From the IMG/VR virus record IMGVR_UViG_3300030104_002310, positions 1 through 57,114 of that record: 57,114 nt of DNA, one strand, 5' to 3'. Position 1 is the first letter of the stretch. The number at the start of each line of letters is the position of its first letter. The notes beneath the pieces were generated by a model that saw only the letters and a program-made list of their open reading frames with translations, did no database searches and was not told where the DNA came from. Below are positions 9,569 through 45,300 of this stretch, piece after piece. The translations under genes and the position numbers were made by a program. The DNA is from a virus.

Positions 9569-10936
9569 ATGTCTTATATTGCAAATACTCCCGCTTTTGG
9601 CGGTACTGGATCACCTAATGTGACTCCGGCTAATAACACCCTTACTTCGCAGCCCTTCCGTACCCAGATGGCTGCTGCTACTTCCGGCGGTGCAGCCGGT
9701 GCTAACAAACTTTGGCTTCCTATTTGGTCTGGCGAAGTGATGTATGCTTACGATCAGTACCGCATGTTTGAACCCCTTGTCGAATCTCGTACTATTAGTT
9801 CGGGTCGGTCGATGGAGTTCCCAATCATGGGTGCTGCTGCTCTTAAACCTGCATGGTTTGCTGGTGAAGAGTTAATTGGTAACAGCAACGATCACGCAAG
9901 CACGACCTTTGCGATTAGCCTTGACGCTCGTCCCATTGCATCGTACTTTGAAGTTGATAACATCGACCTCATGATTACGCAGTGGCAGTATCGTCAGGAA
10001 CTGGCCCGTCAGGTTGGTCAGACTCTGGCTAACGCCCGTGACCTTCAGATCGCAGCTTACCTTGTTCGTGCAGGTGCTGAGTCTCTGATTGGTACTGACC
10101 CCCGTCTTGAAGACGGTAATGACTGGACCAAGAGTCTTAAAGGGTCGCCCCGTTACTACGGTAAATTTAGTACTAAGTTTGAGTACCTTGATTCTGATAC
10201 CGCTAGCGAAGCTAATCGTGCCGATGGTGCGCTTGCTCTGCTTGCTGCTATCGAAGACTTTATGGTCCACCTTCAGGAAATCAACGCTGACACCAGCATG
10301 GTTTTCTGCGCTGTGACCCCGCAGACCTTCCACGACATCCGTGCCCTCGGCGTTGCCCGAGACACTGGTGACCTTGGTGGTGGTGCTGGCCGTCCGTTCT
10401 TCGGTGGTGTTGCTGACGCTGGTGGTCTTGGTACTGGTCTTAGTAACGCTATGGCTGGACTCTCGGACTCTCTTGAGTACATGAGTTGCCGTATCGTTAA
10501 GACTAACCATCTTCCTAACTGGGATGCTAGGGACACTACGCCTTCTGACGGAGGGTCGCCCGCTGCTCCTACTTATCCTTACCAGAAGCAGGTTATCGGT
10601 GAAGGTCGTTATAACCTTGACTTTGCTATGGGTCAGGGTGTGGTTGCTCGCAATGATTCCACCGATGGCGTGATTGGTATTAAGGCTATTATCTGGCAGA
10701 ACAAGTCCGTGGCTGCTCTGTCGCTTCAGGGTATGAAGGTTGATTCGGTGGAAGATGTCCGTCGTAACACCAACTTTACTGTTGCTTCGATGATGGCTGG
10801 CACCGGCGTTCTGCGTCCTGAGTGTGCTTCCATTGTCTTCGGCGGTGGTAAGACCGATGGTACGGCAACGCTTAGTGACACTGAAATTCGTACCGCTCTG
10901 GGTATGACTGCGGAGTACGTTGTTACTCCGGGCTAA
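9569..10936 (+). CDS. Major capsid protein (T7 gp10-like)
   Basis: Builds the icosahedral shell (HK97 fold). The 455-residue protein has the family's N-terminal WSGEVMYAYDQYRMFEPLV and RTISSGRSMEFPIMG blocks, corresponding to the T7 gp10 segments around GGEVLTAF and SISSGKSAQFPV, and a later DDIDLMIT-like region (residues 130-140) for the E-loop and spine. Codons look better optimised (more GGT, CGT and CTT) than in neighbouring genes, as expected for the most abundant protein. The gene has its own leader hairpins upstream and a strong terminator downstream, implying a separately controlled, high-level transcript. No gp10A/10B-type frameshift was identified. Confidence 0.93.
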   Translation: MSYIANTPAFGGTGSPNVTPANNTLTSQPFRTQMAAATSGGAAGANKLWLPIWSGEVMYAYDQYRMFEPLVESRTISSGRSMEFPIMGAAALKPAWFAGEELIGNSNDHASTTFAISLDARPIASYFEVDNIDLMITQWQYRQELARQVGQTLANARDLQIAAYLVRAGAESLIGTDPRLEDGNDWTKSLKGSPRYYGKFSTKFEYLDSDTASEANRADGALALLAAIEDFMVHLQEINADTSMVFCAVTPQTFHDIRALGVARDTGDLGGGAGRPFFGGVADAGGLGTGLSNAMAGLSDSLEYMSCRIVKTNHLPNWDARDTTPSDGGSPAAPTYPYQKQVIGEGRYNLDFAMGQGVVARNDSTDGVIGIKAIIWQNKSVAALSLQGMKVDSVEDVRRNTNFTVASMMAGTGVLRPECASIVFGGGKTDGTATLSDTEIRTALGMTAEYVVTPG

Positions 10937-19542: not shown

Positions 19543-22500
19543 ATGTCGATTTCTAATTGTAACTGCGGTGATTGTCGTGGTAGAGGTGCTTGTTGCATTA
19601 AATATATTGAAGGCGGTTTTAACGATGAAGCTTATTTTAAAATAACGCAAACTTTAGATTCCAACACTAGTTGGTTTTTAGATACAGCTACTAATAATGC
19701 TGACGAAGTAGCACTAGAAGGAAAATCCGGTCTTCCCCCTGTTTTGTTTGATAACATGAGTCAAGGAATAACTGACGTACAAATAGATGTAGAAAAAAAC
19801 GTAAACTCGGATCTTAGAACTATAAGAATTCGTTTTGCTAGTAACGACGATAGAGCGCAGTTTCAAACTAATTTAAACTCAAATTACCCTGACGAAATGT
19901 TTGCTTTAAATGTTAAAGTAAATGAATTATTTACTGATTCTGTTGAACCAACGCACGCATTTTATAGGTTAACAGATGGAGACAATAACAAAATTGTTAC
20001 AAACACTAACGTAGGCGACGTATTAACTTTTATGTGGCGAGTATCAGACATAGCGACAACCACTTTTAATACCCGAAATATAAGTTTAAATGTAAATACA
20101 AACAGCGATGCCGTTCCTTTAATTGCCTCTTCTGCTCCGTTTACACACAGAGGTTGCGTTAATGCTAGTAATACAGAGTGTCGTAATTTACAGACTTGTA
20201 CTTTTGGTAAAGACCCTGATATTGCTTTTTATTTAGCAGGAGTTCCAACAGGAACAGCTAGTGATGATTTTATTACTAGAGAAACACAAGGAGGTTGTGT
20301 TCCTGATCCTCAAGGTAACTGTACTTCATTCCCGTGTTCGCTTCAGCGGTGTTGTGGGCCATCATCTGTAGCATGGTGTGTTGATAATGCTGAATTTTTA
20401 GAACCAGATGGTAATTGCTGCTGTTGTAAGTATCTTGCCAATTTAGCGGATACTAGTAATTGTGCAGATACTTGTAATTATGGATGTGCATGCAATTGTT
20501 GTGAAGGTATTGGTGGTCAGGCGGATGACTGTAGCGGCGATCAGGTTTGTGATGATATAGTAGTCGGGTGTCTTAACGGACCCGGCCTTGATGTAACCTG
20601 TGATGATAATTTTCCTACTACTTGTAATTGCACTTGTCAAGGGCAAGCATGCCGTCCGGGTAGACCTTTTTGTGTCGATGGTTTTTATGACATTCCGGGT
20701 TGCGCTTTTTGTCAAGACAGAGCAGATGAAACCGATAATTATATCTGTGTTCAAGCATCCGCTGAATGGTGTTTAGCTCAAAACAATTTACTTAATGTAG
20801 AATGGAGTTGTTTTAACGGAGCAAAAGAGTGTGTTAATCCTGATGCTCCTGACGGCGGTAATTCGGTTTGTCCTTGTTTAGATGATATCGCATCTCCTGT
20901 TACTACTGGCATATGCGGGTGTGCTGTAGATGCGGATGGCACTTTTGTTCCAAGCTGTAGCGGCGTAGCAGGAGCTTGTCTTGCAAACTGGGCAGACGGA
21001 ACACAATCAGATTGTACTTCTAATCAAAACTTCTCAGTTCAGTTTACTAATTCTGATAATGAAATTTCGGATCAATTAATTTTAGAAACTAAAGTTCCTT
21101 ATTATAATCAAATTAAGCCTACTGCATGTGGATGCGAAGGGTCTTGCTCAGAAGCAGCTACGACACCTAGAATTGGTCATTTAGATCCTTGTTTTTCTTA
21201 CGGTCCTGATGATTCTGATTTAAGTTGTTGCCCTAATTGGTGTGATGGTATTTGTCCCGTATACAATAATATTACTTTTAAACGAATTAATCATTGTAAT
21301 ATAACTAGTAATGTATTTTCTTGTTCTAATTGCTCAGGAGATACCCCTCCTACTCACATGGAAGGATCTCTTTTAAAATTAACGTTAGATTTTAACGCGA
21401 CTTCTGGCATTGAATTACAAAGAACTAAAAACTGGAATTCTTATGTTGCTAATACTCCTGATAATTCAACTGTAATTGTAACAGAAAACAATGATTACAC
21501 TGTTCCAAGCGATGCAATCAGCTTAGAATGGAATAATGTTTTAGGAATAAACGGATCTTTATTTGATTCTAACCAAGCTTTAATTCCTAGTCTTGTGTTT
21601 AAAACTACCACTGATAGAAATTTAGTCATGAACGATTTTTCTAACTTAAGTTCTGACTGGAAAATGCAATCTTATTGTTATTGGGATCTTAGAGAATCGT
21701 CGTATCCTGATTGGCCTTGGGGAGGAGATCAAGAAAACCCTGCTTTAGCTGATGCTAGAGATGTGTACTCTTTAATTGAAGGTTTAACGTGGGCACATAA
21801 CGGTAATCATTCTATTCAAAGCGGTAAACAACTTTGGATGCGTGTTTATACTCCTAATTTAAGGGGTTTATATAAAACTCCTGTTGCGTTTAATAATTGT
21901 GATGGTTCTGCTAGTCAATATAAATACCAAATAGATCACGTATATTCAGGTAACTCTCAGTATGAACGAGGCTATACTAATACAGACTGTATTACAAAAG
22001 ACGGATTAGATTGTACTAGTGATAATACCTGCAAATATGGTAATCCTTGGGAAACTATTAATGATGTGCTTAACCAAGTAGCTGGTGGCCTCAATAACAC
22101 TAGTTACATTGATGCAGGAGGATCTCACATTGATCCGTCGCCCGGTGATTTCCAATTCCCCATTAAACCACATACGCATATGTTTGAATTGTGGTTTGTA
22201 GGAGAAGCAGTTTCTGGCTGCGAACAAAATGCTAATAACGATTATACGCCTGAATTTAAATTAGCAGCAATTGTTAGAGAAGTAGCAGACTGCTCTTCTA
22301 TTAATATTGACAGATTAAACGATAACGAAAATCAATATAGACTTTATAATGATACTTGTGGTTCTTACTATTGGCAGTGTAAAGAACGATCTACTAAGTT
22401 AAGTGTTTATACTTTAACTGATGACGGTTCTAACGAACCTTGGAATCAAGCTTTAAATACTTCTTATGTAAACGATGAAGAGGAAACTATTTATACAGAC

Positions 22501-25500
22501 CCTGCTATTAACGGAAGATCAGCCCCAAGAAAAATTACGTTAACTCCTAAATCAAGCGGTATTTTTAGAACAGGAACTGGCGATGATGTCCAAGATAGCG
22601 TAACTACTTTAACTCCTACTTCTTCTGTAGCATGGAACGAAGATTTATGGTATCATTCAGATCCTAAACACTCTTTTGATTCAGTAGGTAAATCTATTCC
22701 TCAGGTTGCTGCGCGTTGGACAGAACTTCCTTTTAGAAACTACGCTAAAGATTTCTTAGATGAAAGTAAAACATTAAAAGGTTTTTATTTAACTGTATCG
22801 GCGTTTCATTCAGACGGTATTGCCTCTGTTGCTTATTATTTAGATGGTGCTAAATCTGGTCTTGGTACTGCTAATGTAGTAAGCCCTTCTGAGCATCCTT
22901 TAGAAGATACTAAAGCACAGATCGCAAAAAACGATTCTGGTGATTTGTTAACGGGATTAGAGGAATACACTGTAGCTGTAAACACTACGTCACTGTCTAC
23001 AGGAGTTCACGAAGTCCGAGCTAAAATTAATCCTAACGTGCATCGATACGGTGGAACTAGAGGAACGGCTAGGTATTTATATGGAGAACCTCCTACCGGA
23101 GACGCTTCTGTTAATACATCCGATTTAACTAATGTATTAAAAGGTAGTACTAGTTATCAAGTTATTAGCGGACAAGATTTCCCGTTTAGTAAAGCTCAGT
23201 GGCCTAATGATATTCCTGATGGTCCTCCTATTAATAATCAAGAAACATTAAGTAATTTTTCTAATCGTATGTTAGGAGTAGATACTTCAGAAAATAACCT
23301 CAATCCTATGTGGGGAGCGTCTAATTTCTGGAATCTTCATAATGAAGGTTTTAATTATTATGCTGACGGCAGCGATGCTAGTAGTAAAACTCAGACTAAA
23401 TACAACAGTAATAACTTTATCTTTAGCGGAACTCCGCAGCAAGAGTTGCTGTTAAATGGATACGAAAGTTTTTGGTTTAACTTTAACCCCACGCCCCTTA
23501 CAGTGTACGTAGGACAGGCCGGAGATTCTGTACCGGAAGATAGCTCCTATTTTGCTACAAGCCTTTACGAGGCGTTCCAGTGGCTTGAGAGCAACTATAC
23601 GGCAGACAATGCATCTCTTCACGACGCTGAGATTGTTCTTATTCCGGGTACGTCTGCGTCTCCTAGAAAATACAGTTGGCCTAATGCATTCTCTAACGAG
23701 TCTTTGCCTGCTAGTGTTTCTTGGTGCCAGAACGCACTACAAAAGAAAAGTTTTGTTATTAGATCAAAAAACCCAGATGATAAGGATGCCACTATCCTGT
23801 GGTTCCCTCCGTCGTTAGATAGAGTAGAAATGCCTTGGAATAACTTTGCATTACATGTTAGAGATCTTACGGTATTTACTTCTACGCAGAGAGGAGAAAC
23901 AGGTAAAACTTGCTTGCACTCCTCAGGAACAAATTGCCGTCTTCTTGTAGAAAACGTGATTTTCTCGTCTGCTTGCTCTACAGGAATCAAAGCCTCAGCT
24001 TTAGTAGACGGAAGCGGTAACGTTATCTGCGGTGATACACTTCAGAGAGCAGCAAATGGTTCTGTTACAGGTCAGTTAGATTATAGTAAATGTCGTAATA
24101 TTAATACTACTACCTCTAATTTAGAATGTGCTAAGACTACGGCTGACTGCGCTAGTATTACTTGTTGTGGAGCTAAATCTACAGCAGGATGTCAAGAGTG
24201 TACGGGAGCTAACTGTACTACTTGTCGTAATAACTGCACTTGTAGATCTACTGAGATTGACTGGTGGCCTTACTTCTGTAGTGACAATTTTGATATTTCA
24301 ACTAACGGAACTAACTTAACGCCTGTGATTTTGTGCGGTAATAACGACTGTACGTCAGACGATAGTTGGGCTTGTAAAGGTATCTTTGGAAATGATATTG
24401 TAACCTCTAGTTCCTTTATGTGTCTTGGTACACAGCCCCAGCATTGCGTTGTTCTTGGTGCGTTTAACCACGAACTTATGGATATGGCTGATGCTGACCA
24501 GTGGAAGCTTGGTATGTATGGTAAAGACATTGAAGTTAATAATGTTCCCGGTACAAGTCTTAAAAACCCTGTGCTTATGAAGCATATTTTAGTCGATAAT
24601 TATAATAAGACTTTGATTTCTGATAAGGGTCATGGTTGTATTATTGATTTATGGATTAAAAACGCTGACCCACTTACTACGTCTATGGTTCCTAATATGG
24701 ATATTGTCGAGTGGGAAAACATTGGCTATGACACCTACAGTTTAGAAGCAGCTAAAGATTATGACCTTAAGTTTGGCTCACCTAACCCACGTAGCGTTAG
24801 AAACTTTAACTGTTTTATCGAAAACAGAATGATGATTAATATTAAGGTTGATAACAGTCACGCTAGGTTACTTAACATTAAGGGGCCGGGGCTTAAGTAC
24901 AGGGATTTCCTTGCTAATCCCAATGCTTCTATTTCTACACACTCAGGTCATCACAATAACTTTGGTATGGCAAGCACAAGAAACTTTGTGTTTAAGGATT
25001 TCCATATTGAAGAAAAGAAAGAATCTGATCAAGTGTTTGGTACTTTCCCTATTAACCATCTTTATATAGATAATTTTGTTATTTCTAATTGCTTAGATAG
25101 AGATTGCGATTCTACGGCTGAGGCTACAGATACTTGTAGTTATGCTGGTAGCGGTTCGTTGTTCCCTTTAATTAGTATGAATTTAGAAACAGGTTATCAT
25201 ACGTGTTTACATTACGGTAAAAAGCCTATTCAAAACTTGGTTTTAACTAACAGTTTATTCCAAAACTTAGGTACTGGTAAATACGCTCGAAACAAAGAGG
25301 GCCTTAAATTTTATAATGTTCTTAATGAACAAGCAGTATTTCAAACTGCTATTGATTGGGGTCCGTTTAAACGAAAAGCTGGTAATAGATACAACATTGT
25401 AAAACCAGATGGTACAACCCAAAGATTTTTCTGGTATGGAGCTTTTGAACCAGTTATTACTAACGTTAGGCAGCAACGTACTGATAGAGAAGATTCTACT

Positions 25501-26214
25501 CTTCTTGCTGAAGGTGCTACTACTGGCCCTGTTGTACACAAACGTGTGTCTCCTCCTTTGGGTCGTACTGCGTGTAACTCGGGGTGTGATGTAAACCTTA
25601 CTAATCACAATCAATATAGTATTGATTCTACTTCTATTGATTGGTTAGTAAACAGCAGCCAAGCAACAAGTAAACAGTTAGCTATGTTCGGTATGGACGC
25701 TACGTCTAAAAGAATTACATCTAAGAAACCCGCTTATGCTTCTACTTTAATTACAGGTTTAAGCGGTAAAACGGCAGACGGTACAGTCTTGTCTGCTCTT
25801 GCAGGAGGGACGGATCAATTACAGTATCCGTCTGAAGCCCATAGTAACTTTATTGCATACGCTGAGAGTTTATCTTCTGGTAATCTTTTTGACAGGGGTA
25901 TTCCAAACGTCGGTGGTATTACTTTACAGTGGGGTAACCCTAAAAATTATTACCATGACGTTTGTACTTTTAATAGCATTGCAGAAACTTGTAAAAGAAA
26001 TCCTATTTTAGACGGAAGGAATACTACCCAGCCTCTTACTGTTGTAACAGAAAGTAGCGGTACGTATTCTTGGTCTACAAACACTCTTGCCGAGTGTGTA
26101 GGTAAATGTAAAATTGTTAGGGATCATTACTTTGTTGATAAAACAGATGCTGATAATAGAATTGATTTAGATTGGATTCCTATTATTGATGAGTGTCGTT
26201 GTAGTGACGTTTAA
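19543..26214 (+). CDS. Giant cysteine-rich tail fibre or tailspike
   Basis: A 2,223-residue protein with no clear relative known to me. The N-terminus already has CNCGDC. Residues about 205-495 carry 41 cysteines, many as CC or CCCC, and a further 11 lie between about 528 and 600. A third cluster (CCGAKS, CTTCRNNC) is near residue 1540. From about residue 1322 a YVGQAGDSVPEDSSYF segment followed by an EAFQWLES helix and repeating short beta strands resembles the start of right-handed parallel beta-helix (pectate-lyase-fold) spikes. The cysteines suggest a disulfide- or metal-stabilised extracellular receptor-binding structure. A host-wall-degrading activity is possible but no catalytic site was recognised. 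AGGAG precedes the ATG. Confidence 0.8.
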   Translation: MSISNCNCGDCRGRGACCIKYIEGGFNDEAYFKITQTLDSNTSWFLDTATNNADEVALEGKSGLPPVLFDNMSQGITDVQIDVEKNVNSDLRTIRIRFASNDDRAQFQTNLNSNYPDEMFALNVKVNELFTDSVEPTHAFYRLTDGDNNKIVTNTNVGDVLTFMWRVSDIATTTFNTRNISLNVNTNSDAVPLIASSAPFTHRGCVNASNTECRNLQTCTFGKDPDIAFYLAGVPTGTASDDFITRETQGGCVPDPQGNCTSFPCSLQRCCGPSSVAWCVDNAEFLEPDGNCCCCKYLANLADTSNCADTCNYGCACNCCEGIGGQADDCSGDQVCDDIVVGCLNGPGLDVTCDDNFPTTCNCTCQGQACRPGRPFCVDGFYDIPGCAFCQDRADETDNYICVQASAEWCLAQNNLLNVEWSCFNGAKECVNPDAPDGGNSVCPCLDDIASPVTTGICGCAVDADGTFVPSCSGVAGACLANWADGTQSDCTSNQNFSVQFTNSDNEISDQLILETKVPYYNQIKPTACGCEGSCSEAATTPRIGHLDPCFSYGPDDSDLSCCPNWCDGICPVYNNITFKRINHCNITSNVFSCSNCSGDTPPTHMEGSLLKLTLDFNATSGIELQRTKNWNSYVANTPDNSTVIVTENNDYTVPSDAISLEWNNVLGINGSLFDSNQALIPSLVFKTTTDRNLVMNDFSNLSSDWKMQSYCYWDLRESSYPDWPWGGDQENPALADARDVYSLIEGLTWAHNGNHSIQSGKQLWMRVYTPNLRGLYKTPVAFNNCDGSASQYKYQIDHVYSGNSQYERGYTNTDCITKDGLDCTSDNTCKYGNPWETINDVLNQVAGGLNNTSYIDAGGSHIDPSPGDFQFPIKPHTHMFELWFVGEAVSGCEQNANNDYTPEFKLAAIVREVADCSSINIDRLNDNENQYRLYNDTCGSYYWQCKERSTKLSVYTLTDDGSNEPWNQALNTSYVNDEEETIYTDPAINGRSAPRKITLTPKSSGIFRTGTGDDVQDSVTTLTPTSSVAWNEDLWYHSDPKHSFDSVGKSIPQVAARWTELPFRNYAKDFLDESKTLKGFYLTVSAFHSDGIASVAYYLDGAKSGLGTANVVSPSEHPLEDTKAQIAKNDSGDLLTGLEEYTVAVNTTSLSTGVHEVRAKINPNVHRYGGTRGTARYLYGEPPTGDASVNTSDLTNVLKGSTSYQVISGQDFPFSKAQWPNDIPDGPPINNQETLSNFSNRMLGVDTSENNLNPMWGASNFWNLHNEGFNYYADGSDASSKTQTKYNSNNFIFSGTPQQELLLNGYESFWFNFNPTPLTVYVGQAGDSVPEDSSYFATSLYEAFQWLESNYTADNASLHDAEIVLIPGTSASPRKYSWPNAFSNESLPASVSWCQNALQKKSFVIRSKNPDDKDATILWFPPSLDRVEMPWNNFALHVRDLTVFTSTQRGETGKTCLHSSGTNCRLLVENVIFSSACSTGIKASALVDGSGNVICGDTLQRAANGSVTGQLDYSKCRNINTTTSNLECAKTTADCASITCCGAKSTAGCQECTGANCTTCRNNCTCRSTEIDWWPYFCSDNFDISTNGTNLTPVILCGNNDCTSDDSWACKGIFGNDIVTSSSFMCLGTQPQHCVVLGAFNHELMDMADADQWKLGMYGKDIEVNNVPGTSLKNPVLMKHILVDNYNKTLISDKGHGCIIDLWIKNADPLTTSMVPNMDIVEWENIGYDTYSLEAAKDYDLKFGSPNPRSVRNFNCFIENRMMINIKVDNSHARLLNIKGPGLKYRDFLANPNASISTHSGHHNNFGMASTRNFVFKDFHIEEKKESDQVFGTFPINHLYIDNFVISNCLDRDCDSTAEATDTCSYAGSGSLFPLISMNLETGYHTCLHYGKKPIQNLVLTNSLFQNLGTGKYARNKEGLKFYNVLNEQAVFQTAIDWGPFKRKAGNRYNIVKPDGTTQRFFWYGAFEPVITNVRQQRTDREDSTLLAEGATTGPVVHKRVSPPLGRTACNSGCDVNLTNHNQYSIDSTSIDWLVNSSQATSKQLAMFGMDATSKRITSKKPAYASTLITGLSGKTADGTVLSALAGGTDQLQYPSEAHSNFIAYAESLSSGNLFDRGIPNVGGITLQWGNPKNYYHDVCTFNSIAETCKRNPILDGRNTTQPLTVVTESSGTYSWSTNTLAECVGKCKIVRDHYFVDKTDADNRIDLDWIPIIDECRCSDV

Positions 26215-27638: not shown

Positions 27639-28049
27639 ATGCCTATTGAATTGCTGTCCCTTATCGGCGGAGGACTCTCCGGTTTTATCTTTAAATTAAT
27701 TGGTTCTATGGTAGAACGACAGTCGGCTCTTGCTGAGTTGGCTATTAAGACCCAAGCTGCTGCTGATGACTCTGCTGACCGTGCGGAGGCACGGGGAGGT
27801 GCTGGCGGTACGTGGGTACGGCGATTCATTGTTATTACTGTTTTATTTGCAATGGTTGGTGCTCCCTTTATTCTCTCCTTCTTTGGTATCCCTACGTGGG
27901 TCGAAGGTGAGTTTGGTGGTATCTTTGGATTATTTACAGAACAGTTTCATGAAGTCAAAGGATTTCTTCTTGTTACTGAGTTGCGTACAGCCCTGATTGC
28001 TATTATTGGTTTTTATTTTGGGCAGTCCGCTGTCAGTTCAAGGAGATAA
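27639..28049 (+). CDS. Holin-like membrane protein
   Basis: A 136-residue protein with an N-terminal Gly-rich hydrophobic segment (about residues 5-24), a central helical charged stretch, a membrane segment from about 61 to 82 after WVRR, and a third near 112-130. The pattern SxxGGGxSG...E...WVRRFIVITVLF with a late LRTALIAIIGFYFGQSA resembles putative holins of marine phages. Holins form the pores that time lysis. GGGAGGGG before the ATG is a strong signal. No endolysin is adjacent, which weakens the lysis assignment slightly. Confidence 0.65.
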   Translation: MPIELLSLIGGGLSGFIFKLIGSMVERQSALAELAIKTQAAADDSADRAEARGGAGGTWVRRFIVITVLFAMVGAPFILSFFGIPTWVEGEFGGIFGLFTEQFHEVKGFLLVTELRTALIAIIGFYFGQSAVSSRR

Positions 28050-28051
28050 TT

Positions 28052-28231
28052 ATGCCTGTCATGGATGTTATTCCTATTGTAGAACTATTAATTGGTTCCG
28101 GTATTATAGGAATGTTATGGAAAATGAATGTTCAACTTGCTAGTTTGACGGAACAGTTAAAGACTATATTTCGTCGAACAGAAGATCACGAATCACGAAT
28201 TAGAGAAATCGAAAGAGGAAAAGATGCTTAA
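28052..28231 (+). CDS. Small one-span membrane protein, spanin- or holin-accessory-like
   Basis: A 59-residue protein starting at ATG 28052 after AAGGAG. Residues about 5-24 (VIPIVELLIGSGIIGMLWKM) form one membrane segment; the remainder, from SLTEQLKTIFRRTE to the end, is a charged coiled coil. An N-terminal anchor with a periplasmic or cytoplasmic coiled coil is the architecture of i-spanins and of XhlA-like holin helpers. A protein of the same design lies at 53566-53772. The last 8 bases overlap the next gene. Confidence 0.6.
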   Translation: MPVMDVIPIVELLIGSGIIGMLWKMNVQLASLTEQLKTIFRRTEDHESRIREIERGKDA

Positions 28232-28415
28232 TAAAATTAAGAATTTTTTAAAAGATGAACGCGGTATGCAGACCGCTGAGTATATGATTTTAGGCACCAT
28301 TATGGGTGCTGGCTCAATTGGAGCAGTTAAGGCTGTCCGTGATGGGCAGACCGCTAAATTCGAGGAAATGACTGAAGCACTTAACACTAGTGCTGATGGA
28401 ACTATTGGAGGTTAA
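28224..28415 (+). CDS. Flp/type IVb prepilin-like protein
   Basis: A 63-residue protein with a positively charged N-terminus, then DERG followed by MQTAEYMILG, then a short hydrophobic helix (to about residue 38) and a polar tail. Class III signal peptides of Flp (Tad) pilins are cut after Gly, leaving Glu at +5 and Tyr at +6; here both are exactly in place (G, then M-Q-T-A-E-Y). The size also fits Flp pilins. I see no prepilin peptidase or Tad genes, so processing would need host enzymes. It could block host pili against further phages, take part in adsorption, or only mimic the fold by chance. It sits in the membrane/lysis group. Confidence 0.6.
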   Translation: MLNKIKNFLKDERGMQTAEYMILGTIMGAGSIGAVKAVRDGQTAKFEEMTEALNTSADGTIGG

Positions 28416-28417
28416 CT

Positions 28418-28513
28418 ATGCCTAATTTTAAAGGAAAAAAGACTAGTAAAGCTAAAGTTAAAAAAGTTAAGACGGTTCCTAAACCTAAGGCAAAAAAAGT
28501 AAAGAGGTATTAA
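28418..28513 (+). CDS. 31-residue lysine-rich peptide
   Basis: Starts at ATG 28418 two bases after the previous stop, with a GGAGG signal, and ends directly before the next ATG (TAAATG). About 14 of 31 residues are Lys or Arg, with a PKPKAKK segment. It probably binds DNA or RNA by charge, or neutralises packaged DNA. It belongs to a family-like group of tiny basic proteins in this region. No homologue recognised. Confidence 0.55.
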   Translation: MPNFKGKKTSKAKVKKVKTVPKPKAKKVKRY

Positions 28514-30058
28514 ATGAGTAAAGCAACAAGACAAAGCCACGGTATAGATGGTTTAATGACTATGACTATTAGCGGTACTATTAATAGTCCTACCCCGGCT
28601 GCTCCACAAAAAGGACCGTGGTTTTCTCTTAAACAAAATCATAACGACTTATTAGCTCGGGGTACTGAAGCTTATATTTTGTCTTACAGAGAAAACACTC
28701 TTGCTGCTTTACCCACTACTGGAAAAACGGGAGCAGCTAAATGGGTAATTCCTCAGATGTGGGAACGAGAATGGAATCCGCGTTTAGGAGTATCGATTAC
28801 TCCTTTAGATTTTAATAGTGAAAGCGATGGGACTAAACTTGTCCCTGAGTTGTGGTTAAAACCAGAAAATATTTTATTAACTACTGATGGAACTAAAGTA
28901 ACTTCTTGGGAAGATTCTTCAGCTACTCCACAAAACTGGGACGCAGCTACTAACGATGAACCGCCTATTTCAACTGTTGAAAATGCTAATAGGTTTGCCG
29001 GTCCTTCTGGAAACGGAGTAAATAATAGCGGAACTTATTTAAACGCCTTAACCGACATGTTTGATCTTCCCCCAGCAAGCGGCGGTACTCCCCAAAGCGG
29101 GTTTTTAATGTATTTTGTAGTTAAATTTGATTCACCTAATAACGTAACTGCTAATCAAACTTTATTTGCTTGTGGTTCAAACGTAGCTACTACAGAGTGG
29201 AGAATATTTGCTAACAACTTCGATGGATTTGGAAGGGGTGATGTCGTTATTGAAGCTAAAGGAACTGTAGAATACACTGCTTCTAATGCTATTGCTGCTA
29301 ACGGAAATGACCCTACTATTATAGGTGTTGCTAGAACAACAGATGGTACTTTTGTATGCCGTGTTAACGGGGCTAACAAAACTTTTACTCATACTTCAGG
29401 AAGTGCTTTTCCTGACGTTGGTAACTTTGGTACTTCTAGTAGTTTAATATCCACTTTAAACACTATATCCCCTACTGAATCAAATGTATTAAAAGGTACT
29501 CTTCTTGAAGCTTTTTACGTAAGAGAAAAAAATACCGCAGCCCTACAAGCAACTAATATTTCAGAGTTTTCTGGAGAAGCAACAGCAGGAGGAACAATAA
29601 CAATAATTTCTAGTGACGGTACTGAAATTACTTATGCTGCCTATGCCTCTGGAGGAGGTGCCGCTAACGGTCAGCTTGATCCAAAAGGACGAGTAAAATT
29701 CCTTACTGACGCTAATACGACTACACAAGCAGCTAACCTTGTTGCTGCAATAAATGATACTACTAACGGCCACGGTGCTAAAATTACTGCATCAAATGGC
29801 GGTTCTAATCTTGTTATTTTGCAGCAAGCTTCTTTGGGAGCAGCAGGTAATACACCTATTACTATTACCGGCTTGCCTACATTAAATTTTAATGCATCCT
29901 ATAAATCCAGATTTCAAAACGGAGCAGCCGGAATTAATGTTCTTGATATGGAAAAAATTGAAAGTTATTTAGGGCACAAATTTGGTATTGCTTTACCAGA
30001 TGCTCACCCTTATTCTAAAAAGTACAAAAGAAAATCTGCTATTGAAGCAGTAGTTTAA
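28514..30058 (+). CDS. Concanavalin/LamG-like lectin protein with inserted repeat module
   Basis: A 514-residue protein. From about residue 112 the ELWLKPENI...TDGTKVTSWEDSS pattern and later GFLMYFVVKFD and DGTFVCRVNGA strands match the jelly-roll (LamG/concanavalin-like) proteins of marine phages, which often bind sugars. Such domains normally run from a final EAFYVREK-type strand directly into ESYLGHKFGI and HPYS. Here one copy of the module found in tail tube B (about residues 360-450) lies between those two parts, as if inserted. A 21-base stretch at 29614-29634 is identical to 12489-12509 in that gene. Probable receptor or glycan-binding virion protein. Confidence 0.7.
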   Translation: MSKATRQSHGIDGLMTMTISGTINSPTPAAPQKGPWFSLKQNHNDLLARGTEAYILSYRENTLAALPTTGKTGAAKWVIPQMWEREWNPRLGVSITPLDFNSESDGTKLVPELWLKPENILLTTDGTKVTSWEDSSATPQNWDAATNDEPPISTVENANRFAGPSGNGVNNSGTYLNALTDMFDLPPASGGTPQSGFLMYFVVKFDSPNNVTANQTLFACGSNVATTEWRIFANNFDGFGRGDVVIEAKGTVEYTASNAIAANGNDPTIIGVARTTDGTFVCRVNGANKTFTHTSGSAFPDVGNFGTSSSLISTLNTISPTESNVLKGTLLEAFYVREKNTAALQATNISEFSGEATAGGTITIISSDGTEITYAAYASGGGAANGQLDPKGRVKFLTDANTTTQAANLVAAINDTTNGHGAKITASNGGSNLVILQQASLGAAGNTPITITGLPTLNFNASYKSRFQNGAAGINVLDMEKIESYLGHKFGIALPDAHPYSKKYKRKSAIEAVV

Positions 30059-30916: not shown

Positions 30917-30974
30917 CTGTTGAACTTACCAACAGGGCCAGTCAGACCCACCTTGGGGTAAAATCCAAGGTGGG
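30917..30974 (+). promoter_or_regulatory. Two adjacent hairpins in a 92-base gap
   Basis: CTGTTG (30917-30922) pairs with CAACAG (30930-30935), and CCCACCTTGG (30947-30956) pairs perfectly over 10 bp with CCAAGGTGGG (30965-30974) around an eight-base loop. No T-run follows. A further ACCTTGG copy at 30908-30914 could compete for the second stem's 3' arm. Possible terminator, processing site or switch at the start of the packaging block. Confidence 0.55.
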
Positions 30975-30990
30975 CATTCAAGGAGATACT

Positions 30991-31245
30991 ATGCCAGCAG
31001 GAAAAAAGAATTCTAAATATTACTACGATAGAAATCCTAAATCAAAAGAAAAGAAAAAATCTTATGACACTTCTTATCATAGTACACCAGCACGTAAAAA
31101 GTATCGAGCAAAGTTAAACGCTGCTAACCGTAAGGCAGGTACTTATGGTAACGGCGATGGTAAAGATATGTCCCACACTAAATCGGGGCGTATCGTTAAA
31201 GAAAAGGCTTCCCGCAATCGGGCTAGAAACAGAGGTCGTAAATGA
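30991..31245 (+). CDS. Small basic protein of the degenerate-HNH-like phage type
   Basis: An 84-residue protein with start ATG 30991 chosen for its AAGGAG signal. It reads MPAGKKNSKYYYDRNPKSKE and later YHSTPARKKYRAKLNAANRKAG, GDGKDMSH and RNRARNRGRK. This layout, with a YHxxPxxxxxRAxxNxAxR helix, a GDGKDxxH strand and an RNRxRxRGRK end, is known in many marine phages, where the central part recalls an HNH fold. Here the HNH histidines are mostly missing, so nuclease activity is unlikely and a DNA-binding or head-associated role is more probable. Confidence 0.65.
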   Translation: MPAGKKNSKYYYDRNPKSKEKKKSYDTSYHSTPARKKYRAKLNAANRKAGTYGNGDGKDMSHTKSGRIVKEKASRNRARNRGRK

Positions 31246-31391
31246 GTTTATATCGTAATATCCATAAAAAAAGAAAAAGCGGAAAACCCATGAGAAAAAA
31301 GGGAGCTAAAGGTGCCCCCAGTGATCAGGACTTTAAGAATGCGGCTAAGACCGCCAAGAAAAGAAAGCCTAAGAAAAATGGGAAAAAGTAA
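31242..31391 (+). CDS. 49-residue MSLYRNIHKKRK-type basic protein
   Basis: Starts at ATG 31242 in an ATGA overlap with the previous stop. It begins MSLYRNIHKKRKSGKPMRKK, a start I recognise from tiny basic proteins of marine T7- and T4-like phages, and ends in a lysine-rich tail. About 22 of its 49 residues are basic. Function not known; probably binds nucleic acid. It overlaps the next short gene by 14 bases. Confidence 0.6.
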   Translation: MSLYRNIHKKRKSGKPMRKKGAKGAPSDQDFKNAAKTAKKRKPKKNGKK

Positions 31392-31494
31392 ATTTAAATG
31401 TGCGTGTGGCACCACTACTCGAAACACCGGCAAAGATGTTAAGAAACTATTAGCACCACGTAAGGAGAAGTCCTATGGCAAAAAGAAAAAGTAA
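31378..31494 (+). CDS. 38-residue basic protein with CxC
   Basis: ATG 31378 lies within the end of the previous gene in another frame. It encodes MGKSKFKCACGTTTRNTGKD and ends SYGKKKK. The CAC group could be half of a zinc site. There is no strong ribosome-binding sequence, but AAGAAAAA precedes the ATG and translation could be coupled. The end overlaps the next gene by 20 bases. Supported mainly by the chain of overlapping small genes. Confidence 0.45.
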   Translation: MGKSKFKCACGTTTRNTGKDVKKLLAPRKEKSYGKKKK

Positions 31495-31738
31495 AGGAGC
31501 CATGAAAGGTTGTAATATCGGTAATGGCTGTAAAAGCAAAAAGGGTGGTCTTACTGCAAAAGGCCGTCGAATGATTAACCGTAAAACTGGCTCTAAGCTT
31601 AAAGCCCCTCAGCCCGGTGGTGGTTCTCGTAAGAAAAGTTACTGCGCTCGGTCTGCCGGTCAAATGAAAAAGTTCCCTAAAGCTGCTAAAGATCCTAACA
31701 GCCGTTTACGAAAAGCAAGGCGAAGGTGGAAATGTTAA
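31475..31738 (+). CDS. Basic small protein of the DUF6321-like type
   Basis: An 87-residue protein, start ATG 31475 after AAGGAG. It contains GLTAKGRRMINRKTGSKLKAP, then KKSYCARSAGQMKK and a final DPNSRLRKARRRWKC. This order of LTAKGRxxxNRxTGSxLKAP, SFCARxxG, and RxxxAxxRWxC is shared with a conserved phage family usually found near terminase genes (which I recall as DUF6321). The four cysteines may bind zinc. Role unknown; position suggests packaging or head completion. It abuts the large terminase start. Confidence 0.7.
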   Translation: MAKRKSKGAMKGCNIGNGCKSKKGGLTAKGRRMINRKTGSKLKAPQPGGGSRKKSYCARSAGQMKKFPKAAKDPNSRLRKARRRWKC

Positions 31739-33433
31739 ATGAATATACCCCAAGAAATGACTGAAGATTTTAGGAACCACTTGTGGGCCTGCTTTAAGTA
31801 TCTAGGTTTGGGGGAGCCTACGCCATTACAATACGCTATGGCCGAGAAATTACAAAACGGCCCTGATGGTTTTCAGCTTCAGGCTGGCCGTGGTGCTGGT
31901 AAATCTGTGTTAACGGCTTGCTTTGCATCATGGTTGCTTCTTAAAGATCCTAATACAACTGTAATGGTTATGTCAGCTACGGCCAATAAGTCTACTGAGT
32001 TTATTTCTATGACTCGTCGTATTTTGTCCCTTGTCCCGTATTGTCAACATATGGAACCCGGTCCTAATACCAAAGATAATGCCTTTGGGTTTAACGTAGA
32101 GAACAGAACTACACACGGTCAGGATATGAGTTGCTTTGCTCGTGGTGTCACGGGGCAGATAACGGGGTCACACGCTGATTGGGTAATTCTAGATGATGTA
32201 GAGATTGAAAAGAACTCAGAGACAGCAGAGAGCCGTGAGCGGCTTCTCACAAAGGTCTGGGAGATTGAACAGATTCGTAATCCCGGAGAAGGTGGTGTAC
32301 GCATTCTGGGTACGCCTCAGACCTCTGAGTCTATCTACCGTAAGATGGCTGACGGCTATCCAATCCACAAGTTCCCTGCACTGATGCCTGATCCTATGGC
32401 TGAAGGTCAGATTGAGAACTGTGCTGATTATATCCTTGAATTAGATCTACAGCCCGGAGAGTCTACCCAACCTGAGAGATTCCCGTTAGATCTTTTAATC
32501 GAACGTAAAGCAAAAGTTGGGCCTAAGTTGTTTTCTTTGCATTACCATCTTGATACAACTCTAGCGGATGCTGAAAGGTATCCCCTTAAGTTAGCTGATT
32601 TAGTGGTATTAGATCTTGACTACGAAGTAGCCCCTGAAAAAGTCGTGTGGGCTTCAAAACAAATTAATAAGTCTATGCCCTCCTTTGGGTTAAGTGGAGA
32701 TGTGATTTATGAGCCTATGTGGATTTCCCAAAATTATGAGCCTTATGTCCAAAAAGTCATGCACATTGACCCTAGTGGAAGAGGTGCTGACGAAACAGCC
32801 ATATGCTGTAGTGGCTATCTTAATGGTTATGTTTATATTATGGAGCTTCTTGGCTACGATGGCGGTTACGACGAAGGGACGCTCAAAAAAATCGTCCAAG
32901 TCGCAATCGAAACGGATGTAAAATTAATTCGATTTGAGTCTAACTGGGGTGACGCTATGTTTGGTCAGATCCTGCTACCCGTCATGCAGCGCATGGGGTG
33001 TAAGGCAGGCATCGAAGAGTACCGAGTCACCGGAAATAAGAATAAAAGAATTATTGATACTCTTGAACCAGTCATGAATTCACACCGTTTAATTATAGAC
33101 CGAAAGTCTATCCGTCAGGAAAAGACCCAGAGGCAGCTTACCCGTATTACAGAAGTACGTGGGAGCCTTGCTCACGATGACCGCGTAGACGCACTAGCAG
33201 CCTCTGTGAGCTATTGGGAAGAAGCAATGGGGGTCAACGTCGATAAGATGATTGAAACGTCTGAGATCGCCCGTCAGGAGGCCGTAGTAAAAGACTGGAT
33301 GGATGACGAAAGGCGTATTATGGCTATTGCTTATGATCGCACTATTGGTAACGTAGAAGTTAACGGTAAGGAATTTCGGATGCAGACTCCTAAACCGTTT
33401 AGAAATAGGTTGTTAAGGAAATTTAAACGATGA
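31739..33433 (+). CDS. Terminase large subunit (T7 gp19-like packaging motor)
   Basis: ATPase and nuclease that cuts concatemers and pumps DNA into the procapsid. The 564 residues include a Walker A loop GRGAGKSV (about residue 50), a Walker B DWVILDDVE (about 141-149), and a C-terminal RNase H-fold nuclease with HIDPSGRGADET (about 341) and HDDRVDALA (about 480), which carry acidic metal-binding residues. All key residues look intact and the length fits the family (T7 gp19 is 586). The ATG directly follows the previous stop. The end overlaps the next gene by ATGA. Unlike in T7, it precedes rather than follows the internal virion genes. Confidence 0.95.
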   Translation: MNIPQEMTEDFRNHLWACFKYLGLGEPTPLQYAMAEKLQNGPDGFQLQAGRGAGKSVLTACFASWLLLKDPNTTVMVMSATANKSTEFISMTRRILSLVPYCQHMEPGPNTKDNAFGFNVENRTTHGQDMSCFARGVTGQITGSHADWVILDDVEIEKNSETAESRERLLTKVWEIEQIRNPGEGGVRILGTPQTSESIYRKMADGYPIHKFPALMPDPMAEGQIENCADYILELDLQPGESTQPERFPLDLLIERKAKVGPKLFSLHYHLDTTLADAERYPLKLADLVVLDLDYEVAPEKVVWASKQINKSMPSFGLSGDVIYEPMWISQNYEPYVQKVMHIDPSGRGADETAICCSGYLNGYVYIMELLGYDGGYDEGTLKKIVQVAIETDVKLIRFESNWGDAMFGQILLPVMQRMGCKAGIEEYRVTGNKNKRIIDTLEPVMNSHRLIIDRKSIRQEKTQRQLTRITEVRGSLAHDDRVDALAASVSYWEEAMGVNVDKMIETSEIARQEAVVKDWMDDERRIMAIAYDRTIGNVEVNGKEFRMQTPKPFRNRLLRKFKR

Positions 33434-39307: not shown

Positions 39308-42300
39308 ATGTCTAATTTTACTGCGAACTCTCAATGGTTTAAAGATTACGTTCAATCAATTGAAATAGCTGAATTTAATAAAGAACGACCTAAAAGAAAT
39401 TTTAAAGATTACAGAAAAGAACAAACAATTGCTAGTCGAGTTGAAAACGAACGATTTATGAATGACTTTTCTTCTTTAGTTTCTTTAGTCCCAGAATATG
39501 ATTATACTGATGAATTGGCTGACTCTAAAGAAAACCTTCTTGGAATGTTTAGATTAAATTTCTCAGAACAAACTGAACGTAATGCAGCAAGAGACGCAAA
39601 AAGAGACGAATTAGCTTCTTTAGTTACTGACGAACAAAGAACTGTTTACGATACTACTCAAACTAGTATTATTACAGATTTAAAAGAAGCGACAAAAAAC
39701 AATACTCCTTTGTGGCAAGTAATGAACCCAGACGATTTTGTGTGGAAAGATACAGGAGAAGCAACTACTAGGTTGTATGATACTACTAACGGTTATTCTA
39801 TGTCTCAGTACACTACTTTTACTACTGCGGACACTTATAAAAGTTGGTTTGGAGCAACAAGACGAGTTAAAATGGGCGGAGCGCAAAGACTTCAGCTTAA
39901 TGAATCTCTTGCTGACAGCTTTAGAAAAATTGCAACTGAAGCAAAAATTAGATGGGATTTTGAAGGACCAATTGCTGAAGCAAATGGCCTCACTATTAAA
40001 CAATACATTGATGAAGCTATTGCCGAAAACCCAGATCAGTGGTGGTTTTTTAGAAACATTGGAGATCTCTTTTATACCACAGAACAAGGAAACCAAATTG
40101 ACGGTAGAGTAGCACCGTGGAATTCTTCTATGTTGTCTGAACGTCTTTTATCAATGACTGATGAAAACTGGACTAGCGAAGGCGGAGACAGAGATAAGCT
40201 TTTAGCTATTTTTAAAATGGACGAAAATGAGATTGGACCAACTGGTATTATCGAAGGTGACGTTAGGAAGTTTATTGCAGAAAACCCTACTTTAATTGAA
40301 GACCTTCAAAACTCTAATAACGGATGGCAGTTTATTTCAGCTTTAAATAAACGAAAATCTGAACGTGTTATTGGTAATTATTTAACTGAAAATAATAACA
40401 GTTATGGTGCTGCTGGTTTTATGAACTTACTGGGGTATGGATTTACAACCGACCCTGCAATAGCCTTAGACATTGCAGCTACTGTTGGTCTTACAATCGC
40501 AACTGGTGGTGGTTATGTTGGCGTGAGAGCAGCGGCAGGAGTTTTACAAATTGGGTCAAAACTTAAATTTGGACTGTCTATAGCTAAATCAGCTAAAAAA
40601 GCAAAGCACTTTAAAAGAATGGTAAAACGTGCCCACGATGGTAAAACAGTAGGAAGATACAGAGCGGCATCAGCGGTAGGAAAAACCTTACGTGGTATTG
40701 GAGAAGCTACTATGTTTAGTAGAAGACTCTTGCCAACACAGATTGTGTCTGAGCTTTTCTTCCCTAGTCTTAAATTTTTGCGCCATTCAAGAGCTATGAA
40801 AAAAGGTGATGATGCTGCGGATGCCGCAACTTCATGGTGGAAATACTTAAAGAACGAAAATTACTTAGGCGATAGCGTAGGTAGGAGAATGCTGCATAGA
40901 TCTATTGGTGGAGCTATGGAAGGCGTTGTTTGGGGAAGCATTGAATACGGAGTTATGGAAGACTACCAAGATAGAACCAACTCTCTTATTTTTGGTAACG
41001 ATGCAGCAGCAGCCTTAGCTTTAGATCGTGACAGGTCAGGAGCTTACGGTCATATGCTTATGTTTGGTGTTGCATTTGGTGGTTTAGGTGGCCCTCTTAT
41101 TGGTGAAACCTTCACGCAAGTAGGTAAAATTCCTCAGGGAATGATGATCGGCGGAATGAAAATGAGCCAGTGGGCTGATCAGGTTCTTTCTCCGGGCGGT
41201 CAAGAAGCTATGGGATATGCTAAAGCACCGTTTGCTAAACGGTTTGGTGCTAGAATTGTACAGGGAACCGGAAATGCAGTTACTTGGCTTGGCGGAGGAA
41301 ACCAGTATAGCGTAGAACAGCAGTACTTAATGTATAAAGCATTAAGTAAAATTTCTCAAACAGAATTACTTAAGATGGCAGAAGCTGATGATAACGGTGT
41401 TGCTATGACTAAGGTTCTTCAGGATATTGAAGACAGAATTTCTAAATATCAGTGGGCAGCTTCTGAGGCTGGCTTAGACATTAGAGAAGCTTTTAAAAGC
41501 GCAGAAGATGTTATGGATGGTAAACCAGAAAAGGAACGTACTTCCTCGGCGTTTATTAAACAAGTTGAAGATCACTTAGAAGGACAAGAAATTGCAGCTA
41601 GAGGTAAAGCTGGGTTTAGGTCTAGAGTTAGACAAGCCGTATTAGCCGAGTTCCAAGAAAGAATGAGATCAGGACAAGATGTGGGTATTATGGAAAAGGC
41701 AATGGAAGAAGCTGACCCAAATAACCCGCCATCTGATCCAGAGGTTTCTAATTTAAATAAAACAGTTACAGATATTCAAGAAGAAAGTGCAAAAGTTAGC
41801 AAAGAACGAGAAGCTGTTGTTCAAGAACAAGCCAGAAGAAAAGAAGGATTAGAACCAGATGAACCAGCACGAACCCCAGAACAAATTGAAGGAGAGTTCG
41901 CTGAACAGGTAAAACTTCGAGACGAAGAAACTATTGCTGCTAAAACAGAAGAAAACAATAAAGCTAAGGCAGAGTTAAAAGAGCTTAATAAATCAAAACG
42001 TAAAGGCGTATCTAAAAAACAGTTTAAAAAAGACAATCCTCGTGTTGAAGAATTAGAAACTACCATTAGAGAAACTGATAAATTTCTTGCAGATGCTGAA
42101 GAAGCTAAAAAAGTTTCTATTGAAGAAGCAGAAGCAAAGAAAAATGCAGAGCTTGAAGAAGCTAAAAAAGATCTTCAAAATCTTTCTGATGATGAGTTAA
42201 CCGAAAGATTAAACGACTTAGATGTTATTTTAGGTGAAAGACTTTACGAACTTGAGTCAGAAGCATATGCTTACTGGCAGGCTAACCCTGAAAAGTTTGT

Positions 42301-45300
42301 TAAGTATATTGCTTACTTTAGAAAAAAGGTTTTAGAAGAACGTTTAAACGGAGATACTCCTAATGCTAACGGTATGCCTCCAATGTTTGCAGCTATTGAT
42401 GGCTTAGAGGTAGACGGTGCTGTTAACATGATTCAACTTTTTGCTCCCGGTACTTATTTTACGAGAGATGAGTTAATTAGAGTTCGCAGGCAGTTAAAAA
42501 CAGAAGACCAAAGATTTATTACTGCTGCTCTTGAAGGAAGTCAAGACGGGGAATTTGATCTTACAAAAGCTGAAGCAAGAGCTTTAACAACTAGAATTAA
42601 AGATATTTTAGTTGAAGAAGCAGTTAACAAAGATTATACTAGTGAAGAAATGCGTTTTATGAACGCTATTATTAATGAGCCTAGTGCCGAAACAATTGAA
42701 AAAGCGTTTGCTTCAACTCGGGTTGAAACCTATGTTAATAACATGATGATTGACGCGGCTAAAAACAATAAGGTTCTTACGGCTGATGATCTTATGTTAT
42801 ACAACCAAGATCCTGAATTAGTTATTGAAACGTTTGTAAAGGCTAAACAAGATTTAGCCAAACTTATGGTTGAAGTAAGAGACGGTAATTATACTACTAT
42901 TCTTAGAAGTCAAGGTAAGAATGTCTTAGATACTCTTGGTGAAGGAGTCGAGGGATATAAAAAATCAGGAAAAGGTATTACTAACAAATGGAAAGCTGAT
43001 TTCTTGGCTAAATACTTTAGCGAAAACGAAGAGTTTACTGCTACTAAGGCTGAGATGTTAGAAGTATTTGAGGTAAACGATGAGTTTGTAGGACCAACCC
43101 TTCAGCAGCCCGCAAGAACCTCAGAACAAATGGATTTAGTCAAAGCCCGTATTAAAGATTTGCTTGAAGACGTTGTTAACCAGCAAGCAGAAAAAATTAA
43201 AATGTCTGAAGTTAGGGCACGAAGAAAAAGAGCAGGTTACGCAAAACAAAGAGAAAAAGCACAGAATGCTTACGCTAAATGGTATGAGTCTAGTACTAAA
43301 TTAAGTAATAAGACAAAAGCTGATCAAGATAAAGTTGTTTTCCAGAGAGCGCGTAATAAACTTAAAGAAATGCGTGACTCTATTAACAAAGCGGTTGACG
43401 CTGAGTGGGAGAACGGTACTATCAAAGCTGATTGGATTGCCCGACAAAGCAAACGATTAGATGTACAGTATAGACCAAACTTTGCTCACGCCCGTCCTCT
43501 TGTTAAAGTACTCTCTATGCTTCAGGCTCATTTGTTAGGCACTGCTCGATGGAAGCGTGATTCTCTTAGTGGGTTCTTTGTTGATACAACTATTACTAGA
43601 AAAGATTTAATTTCTATTTTAGAAACTGCTGAAGAGGGTTATGGGTTTATTGCAAACATCGATGAAATTGCTATTGGAGCAAGAGTAGGCGAAGGTTACG
43701 ACGGTGAGAAAGTAATTCAGGCTCTTCTTACTAAACTCAAGTCCACTGATCAAACGTTAGGAAACGTACTTAGTGCTGGTTTTGAAAAGAACTTAGGTAT
43801 TCATTTCGGTAAGAAGCTTCCCTACGCTACTGATGTATTTGGATCTAGAGGCGACTTACGAAACCTTATGACTTCTCTAAAGGGTCAGTTAGAAGGAAAG
43901 CAAGCTTATGCTAGAGGTAAAGCAGGAGCAGGAGAATACGCTGGTAATCGAGGAGATGGGAACATTGACGAGGCTACTTGGAATTCATCCTTTAACGAAG
44001 AGTTTATTACTCGTTTAGGTTACATTGCTACAGAAGGTAGTCAAAGAGCTAGAAATCTTCTTGCTGCTTTAGATGGATTAAGTCCTGAAAAACAAATTGC
44101 TACAGCACTGAAATTTATTAACGAGTTTATTCCTGAAGGACAAAACAAACTAAAATCATTTAGTCAGTTAGGCGGAGGAACAGAAGCAATTGATTGGGTC
44201 GGACCAAAGAGAGCAGCACAAGCTGTCTTGTCGGCTCTGTCTACTGAACGACCGTATGCAAATAAGGTTGCTGAGTCTTACGTTGTCAAGGGAGAAAGAA
44301 ACAGACCAGAACGCGCTAGAAGATTAAGTAATATCGATGAAGACGGTATCTATATTCAGCACGATTCTGATCCTATCATTCAAAGAAACTATGAACGTGC
44401 TACGGCTGATCACGCAATGAACTGGCTTCTTAAGAAATTAGATAATCCTGATTTAGATGCAGAAGCTAGAAAAGATATTTATAAAAAACTTCAGGCATGG
44501 CTCGAAGATTTCCCTGAACAAGCAGTACTTAATGATGCTGTAAGAGCGGCTATCCCACAGCAAGGTCTTTCGTTTGTTCCTCGTTGGATGGTAACTGGTC
44601 CTGATGCTGATATCATCGGTAAAAACTTTGGTACAGGTATTGAAGGACAAATACAGTATAACTTAGCAATGTCAAAGGTTAATACTCCTGCTCTAATGGC
44701 TACTATTCACGACGCTATTTTTGTTGGTTTGCCGTCTATGATGACTAAATCAGGAGACGTTGCAGCTTCACCTAGTTGGAACTTTAAGGTAGGAGACGAT
44801 CATGTCTTAAGAGGTATTGGATTTGGTTTCCAAACTTTAATTGCTCGTAAAGGTTCTTTTGAAGATGCCTTAAACCATGTTCATCAGATTATGTATGAAT
44901 ACAAAGGTTTAGTGGAAGAAGCAAGAACGTCTTACAATAAACTTGAAAAAGCAACGGTAGAAGGGGTGGTTGGAAAAACCTTTGATACTAACGATGAGTT
45001 TGTAGGTTGGATGGCCCAAGAGTTTCCTAAATTAGATACCGCAAAAAAAGAAGCCGTTATTAAAGAACTTTTCCCAGCATTAGCAAGTTCTTATATGGAC
45101 GCTGATTCTTCAGGATCAAACATTATGCTTGCTCTTGTGATGGGGCAAGATACTGATTTTGGTAACTTATGGAAAACTATTAAAGAAGCTGATGAAGGTA
45201 ATAAGGATGTCTATAACGAAGCGCACAGTGAAGCTGTTATTAACGCTTACAAGCATGTAGAAAGCTATGTACTGGAGCGAATCGAAAAAAGAGATTTTAA

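Follow-up and report, generated by a model that had tools for sequence, protein, structure and literature searches.

The flp locus of a T7-like phage

The gene flp encodes a prepilin of the Flp/Tad type (P0001; Table 1), which reads MLNKIKNFLKDERG up to the predicted cleavage point and MQTAEYMILGTIMGAGSIGAVKAVRDGQTAKFEEMTEALNTSADGTIGG beyond it, with a hydrophobic helix placed after the Glu19-Tyr20 pair. Its start overlaps the upstream gene orf59 by 8 bases. A host prepilin peptidase of the A24 type would be expected to cut the leader after Gly14. The whole stretch of DNA analysed, 57,114 nucleotides of the IMG/VR record IMGVR_UViG_3300030104_002310, is referred to as the window. It carries the T7-type terminase, portal, scaffold, capsid, tail tube, exonuclease and DNA polymerase genes, together with a ribonucleotide reductase gene, and its terminase is about 36-42% identical, among the best matches listed, to those of cultured or deposited phages. 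No prepilin peptidase (PF01478), assembly ATPase over the cut-off (PF00437) or TadE protein (PF07811) was found in the record, and Pfam scans of its larger ORFs returned neither secretin nor platform genes. Hence the sequence-only reading, which had reported at this place an ORF with a DERG and Gly-x4-Glu-Tyr motif and a hydrophobic helix, on a T7-like phage otherwise free of pilus genes, is borne out as far as these searches reach.

Table 1. Features of the flp region and the terminase marker, in window coordinates
Feature	Positions	Strand	Description and basis
orf136	27639..28049	+	Small holin-like membrane protein (a holin only by inference), phrog_38283; upstream cassette flank
orf59	28052..28231	+	Small protein, one N-terminal hydrophobic helix, charged coiled-coil-like tail
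AGAGGA	28214..28219	+	Likely ribosome-binding site of flp, within the end of orf59 (sequence)
Empty site of flp	28217..28406	.	Stretch absent from L063 (comparison with near-identical phage)
flp	28224..28415	+	63-amino-acid Flp/Tad-type prepilin (ORF, homology, motif)
Predicted leader	28224..28265	+	MLNKIKNFLKDERG, 14 residues, basic, ending in Gly14 (PilA leader length, variability)
Predicted mature pilin	28266..28412	+	49 residues; Glu19-Tyr20 codons at 28278-28283
Lys-rich ORF	28418..28513	+	31 amino acids; downstream cassette flank, identical in L063
T7-type large terminase	31739..33433	+	T7-like phage marker

A strict motif search, in which Gly-x4-Glu-Tyr/Phe had to lie 6-20 residues past the start of an ORF of 45-90 amino acids, preceded by at least two basic residues and followed by a hydrophobic stretch, returned flp as the single matching ORF of the window. 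First-order Markov shuffles gave a match in 3 of 300 cases (mean 0.01), counts that are taken as supporting evidence only, since the hydrophobicity threshold was relaxed after a first run had narrowly missed flp. The AlphaFold model of the protein consists of two helices, at residues 12-39 and 43-53, with a mean pLDDT of 78.5, that is, of modest confidence; helical as pilins are, it is compatible with a small all-helical pilin without a globular domain, although it is not decisive. Comparison of the model with the PDB by Foldseek gave no match, as expected for a short helical protein, and sequence searches of solved structures yielded chance matches only.

Three further features of the window deserve mention in their own right. 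A single ORF of 4719 amino acids (39308-53467) with no Pfam match occupies a quarter of the record, and adjoins an ORF of 1524 amino acids standing in the place of the T7 internal virion proteins. Between the tail fibre and the small-gene region (19543-26214), a very Cys-rich protein of 2223 amino acids is encoded, which has no Pfam or PHROG match and is about 40% identical in relatives. Finally, small Lys/Arg-rich proteins (orf91, orf87 and others) precede the terminase at 30970-31738 and are common to unrelated flp carriers.

Relatives in Tad loci and the probable host

When 84,980 bacterial and archaeal species genomes were scanned, relatives of flp were found in two only, both of them Planctomycetota MAGs (L022 and L023) of the same family-level group, one labelled Phycisphaerales. 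In these two Phycisphaerales-type MAGs the relatives, 66-68% identical to the flp protein, stand at the end of complete Tad loci. Between flp and the second of the two pilins at the end of the L022 locus, identity is 68% over 62 residues (pairwise E 2e-33). By Pfam, the L022 locus comprises Peptidase_A24, TadE, RcpC/CpaB, a secretin, T2SSE, two T2SSF and a TPR protein; the L023 locus has the same layout, and a pilin gene pair terminates both. Beyond these closest relatives, a flp profile aligned with classical Flp pilins without gaps over residues 1-57 (E 2.6e-7) and with a further clade of Phycisphaerales pilins, from the bacterial family of the two MAGs (E 1.2e-8). In the classical alignment the PilA row was entered by hand, and the remaining rows come from the loci themselves. 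Gly14, Glu19 and Tyr20 are invariant in all 21 aligned phage and host sequences, and every homologue retains the Gly-x4-Glu-Tyr pattern.

The curated Pfam Flp_Fap (PF04964) and NCBIfam Flp models gave no match to the flp protein, with only DUF4244 appearing below threshold, and the true Tad-locus pilins of the two MAGs are likewise missed by them; recognition by such models was used as an aid to the detection of Flp pilins and not as their definition. PHROGs has no family for the protein. Homology and motif together make the flp product almost certainly a genuine homologue of the Flp/Tad pilins, and the Flp (Tad)-type prepilin that had been suspected in a T7-like phage has its nearest cellular relatives at the end of real Tad operons.

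On the pilin alone, as found on two MAG contigs, the probable host from which flp was derived is a Phycisphaerales-like member of the Planctomycetota. Comparison of the terminase with 181 genomes of the family produced one match of 37% and no close relative. The pilin tree separates phage from host copies too poorly to give the direction and number of captures. Viral contigs were also scanned with two other Phycisphaerales pilin clades, and as none was found, phage carriage is not seen for all pilins of the family. If the assignment is right, flp provides a host lead, one Phycisphaerales family, for phages that are uncultured, and leads to the prediction that phage infection of Planctomycetota involves their Tad pili.

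Distribution, exchange and variation of flp among phages

Carriers of the gene number about 20 viral contigs, which represent five lineages or more and have it at different genomic places (20 viral loci beyond the window, near-identical contigs included, all of them metagenomic). The lineages comprise three T7-like groups, a T4-like, an N4-like and a phrog_2-terminase group. To the T7-like group of the window belong L002-L005 and L021; in the second (L009) flp stands beside ribonucleotide reductase, and in the third (L016-L020, five near-identical contigs counted as one) it is placed between the scaffold and capsid genes. The N4-like phage (L013) encodes an N4-type RNA polymerase, the T4-like one (L006, which L008 resembles closely in its pilin) a gp23 recognized at E 2e-135, and the last group has other replication and packaging genes (L010, with the phrog_2-type terminase, L011, L012, L014 and L015). 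In several carriers flp lies among structural genes. Its neighbour in most carriers encodes a small membrane protein that has a single hydrophobic helix and a tail resembling a coiled coil, and in two carrier groups a 120-amino-acid lipoprotein-like protein with further hydrophobic helices is encoded between the two. No INPHARED phage record contained flp or a close Flp pilin. Prepilin peptidase was absent from all 13 records searched, which had no assembly ATPase over the cut-off either.

In the T4-like L006, the gene may form a separate transcription unit. The element CATAAATA, which resembles a T4-type late promoter, is found at positions 9958-9965, 35 bases before flp, and a terminator-like hairpin lies downstream of the gene, after position 10195. 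The ATAAATA motif occurs once in the 15.7 kb of this contig, against 1.4 occurrences expected by chance. As other L006 genes are not preceded by such an element, CATAAATA was dropped as a sign of late expression.

Comparison of close relatives reveals that flp is optional. To either side of flp, L063 is 98-100% identical to the window, yet it has no flp (about 190 bp); its orf59 is a different allele (about 70%) and the flanks of flp are joined directly. At the window site flp is also missing from L065, L067, L069, L070 and L071, the basis for L065 and L070 being a scan of the collection and the cassette site itself. In other relatives the gene is exchanged: L021 and L005 agree with the window at about 0.9-1.0 in either flank and at 0.68-0.77 over the stretch of orf59 and flp, and in L021 both genes have been replaced together in an allele swap. 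Thus, orf59 and flp are gained, lost and swapped as a unit, and flp is a dispensable, moron-like accessory gene. The upstream flank, orf136, is 96-100% identical in close carriers and non-carriers. For the coiled-coil neighbour of the orf59 type, no convincing counterpart was found in four host genomes and no match in INPHARED. A second variable spot lies beside flp in these otherwise close phages: orf514 (28514-30058), 3' of the cassette, shows 27-30% identity in L003-L005 and is near-identical in L063.

Phage and host copies of flp have a median dN/dS of about 0.13, a value to be read with synonymous divergence mostly saturated, and the gene is under strong purifying selection. The variation that does occur is concentrated in two stretches, the leader and residues 43-57, and hardly touches the core helix, the mean entropy being 1.18 bits in the leader, 0.79 in residues 41-57 and 0.20 in the core helix. 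In Caulobacter crescentus, phage Cb5 contacts the Tad pilus at residues such as Asn43, Lys48 and Thr51 and at the C terminus of the pilin; strain NA1000, which differs by four changes including N43R and T51A, both in the phage contact surface, does not adsorb Cb5. The variable C-terminal part of the phage pilins would therefore correspond to a region on which, in a known Tad pilus, adsorption of a phage depends. By analogy with PilA this match is suggestive and not proof, as the exposed ends of pilins vary anyway.

Pilin genes of other kinds were also observed on virus-classed records. The 77 kb record L058 (IMGVR_UViG_3300030329_003925) contains a different Flp pilin (PF04964 over the cut-off) and a TadE-like protein (PF07811 over the cut-off), whose genes, at 5007-5162 and 6094-6507, are placed around tmRNA and tRNA genes; no peptidase or ATPase was found on it. 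L058 thus provides another instance, independent of flp, in which a record classed as viral carries pilin genes. Classical Flp pilins of the DESGATAIEY type occur in L054 (4998-5174), L055 (4998-5177), L056 (1477-1659) and L057 (about 4924-5079). L054 (92 kb) also carries a UvsX-like recombinase and an exonuclease, and L057 a terminase; some of these four records may be prophage flanks or host DNA.

Possible roles of the phage pilin and comparison with known systems

Taking together the conserved cleavage signal and core helix, the variable exposed part and the cassette behaviour of the gene, we propose a model in which the phage pilin enters the pili of its host. During infection, the phage prepilin would be cleaved by the host prepilin peptidase and join the pilin pool of the inner membrane. 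From there the host Tad machine would build it into pili, replacing the host pilin or mixed with it; the phage protein would thus depend on the peptidase and assembly machine of the host. The changed pilus surface, or the changed pilin pool, would have the effect that pili no longer act as attachment sites. The benefit would be twofold, as competing phages would be kept off the infected cell and released progeny kept from sticking to cell remains. Placement among structural genes in several carriers agrees less well with an early shutting out of rivals than with a role in protecting the progeny. Taken as a whole, this chain, with the purpose that it assigns to the gene, is put forward tentatively, at a little short of an even chance. 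Under it, and again by analogy, the Tad pilus is a candidate receptor of the flp-carrying phages.

A part of the lysis apparatus or of the virion would be less expected to behave as this cassette does than an accessory gene suited to the host or the competitors. A wider form of the proposal would be that lytic phages of several unrelated lineages (gene content is the ground for regarding the carriers as lytic) carry interchangeable pilin alleles that convert the surface of the host Tad pilus during infection. Which allele a phage has, or whether it has one at all, would then be suited to the host strain or to the rival phages around it. We regard this wider form as conceivable, with the balance somewhat against it; if true, it would be a receptor conversion in which the phage itself supplies the receptor subunit.

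Alternatively, the phage pilin could serve the upkeep of host pili. Fresh phage pilin would keep Tad pili working after host expression falls, much as psbA does for photosynthesis in cyanophage infection, for instance so that the infected cell stays on particles with new hosts close by, and this would account for the function-preserving conservation of flp, for the presence of the same gene in unrelated phages of probably one host group, and for the carriage of the high-copy subunit without its machine. However, the gene is optional among near-identical phages and thus not generally needed, the gain for a lytic phage is unclear, and the variable C-terminal part receives no special explanation, which leaves upkeep doubtful, if worth keeping in view.

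An opposite outcome would result if the phage protein entered the peptidase and assembly pathway in order to jam or cap it and so remove the pili. The cleavage signal is kept, as such a poison would need, and there is a precedent in other phage proteins, which disable type IV pili in different ways (PMC11436027). In a poison, Glu19, Tyr20 and the core helix should be relaxed or altered, whereas all are conserved as in real pilins; in PilA, Glu19 and Tyr20 make up the network of hydrogen bonds in the pilus core, and assembly requires them, while expression and processing do not (PMC11067988). Poisoning is thus unlikely. Of the purpose that the sequence-only reading had suggested for a false pilin, the poisoning half becomes less likely than a functional substitute because these two Tad assembly residues are retained, while rival phages may still be excluded, by means of an altered and not a jammed pilus.

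It may also be argued that the likeness to pilins reflects only the origin of a small membrane helix that acts with its holin-like and coiled-coil neighbours in lysis or envelope disruption. Small membrane proteins adjoin flp in most carriers and the gene is exchanged together with orf59, but near-identical phages keep these neighbours and lack flp, L009 has flp beside ribonucleotide reductase with no such neighbours, and neither the invariant Gly14, Glu19 and Tyr20 nor the 68% identity to host pilins is needed for lysis; a lysis accessory is improbable. Still less probable is a pilin that forms part of the virion surface or helps the phage to adsorb, for which the structural genes around flp in some carriers (in L016-L020, those for scaffold and capsid) could speak, given that the gene is optional, differently placed in different phages, endowed with a leader for membrane insertion and devoid of relatives among virion proteins. 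That flp arose by chance or is not a phage gene has a practically negligible probability, and contamination by host DNA, although its close cellular relatives are true host genes, is ruled out by the occurrence of flp among virion and replication genes in independent contigs, with T7-like virion and packaging genes flanking it in the window and in several of them, gp23 on the T4-like record, and a sequence pattern that is rare in shuffles.

Incorporation of the phage pilin into host pili, the reading preferred here, can be set beside several known systems. The flp1 and flp2 pilins of the two MAGs share with the window protein 58-68% identity, a similar leader, the invariant Gly and Glu-Tyr and a DG..G tail; they are chromosomal, paired and beside a full Tad machine, whereas the phage gene is single and has no machinery. 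The psbA gene of cyanophages encodes a high-turnover subunit of host photosynthesis; unrelated phages that share these hosts carry the gene, and recombination exchanges it among them. Like it, flp is a recombining host subunit gene in unrelated phages, but the one encodes a photosynthesis protein and the other a surface pilus subunit.

PilA of C. crescentus, from which the first 14 residues are removed (PMC11067988), resembles the flp protein in its 14-residue leader, in Glu19 and Tyr20 at the same numbering and in being a short all-helical pilin; the two are about 26% identical, and PilA is a cellular protein whose pilus is a known phage receptor. In the Vibrio harveyi prophages phi345 and phiGANI1709, Flp-family pilin genes have been annotated as putative virulence factors by similarity (PMC12482185). 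As in the window, a Flp pilin gene lies there on a tailed-phage genome, although these are temperate prophages and the likeness is one of annotation alone. Apart from such Vibrio prophage listings, a search of the open literature returned no study of pilins encoded by phages; the novelty lies in a pilin present in unrelated phages as an optional, recombining cassette, with the likely donor group identified.

If the role proposed for flp is right, it would share the action of a phage gene on host pili with the phage proteins Tip and Aqs1, which act on PilB, and with Pf4 pVII, linked to PilC/PilJ, all known for blocking type IV pili in superinfection exclusion (PMC11436027). Those proteins are not pilins and hit the motor, the platform or expression, whereas flp encodes the pilus subunit itself. 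Where known anti-pilus tactics of phages block the assembly motor or platform, carriage of the subunit would constitute a different and simple means of attachment control.
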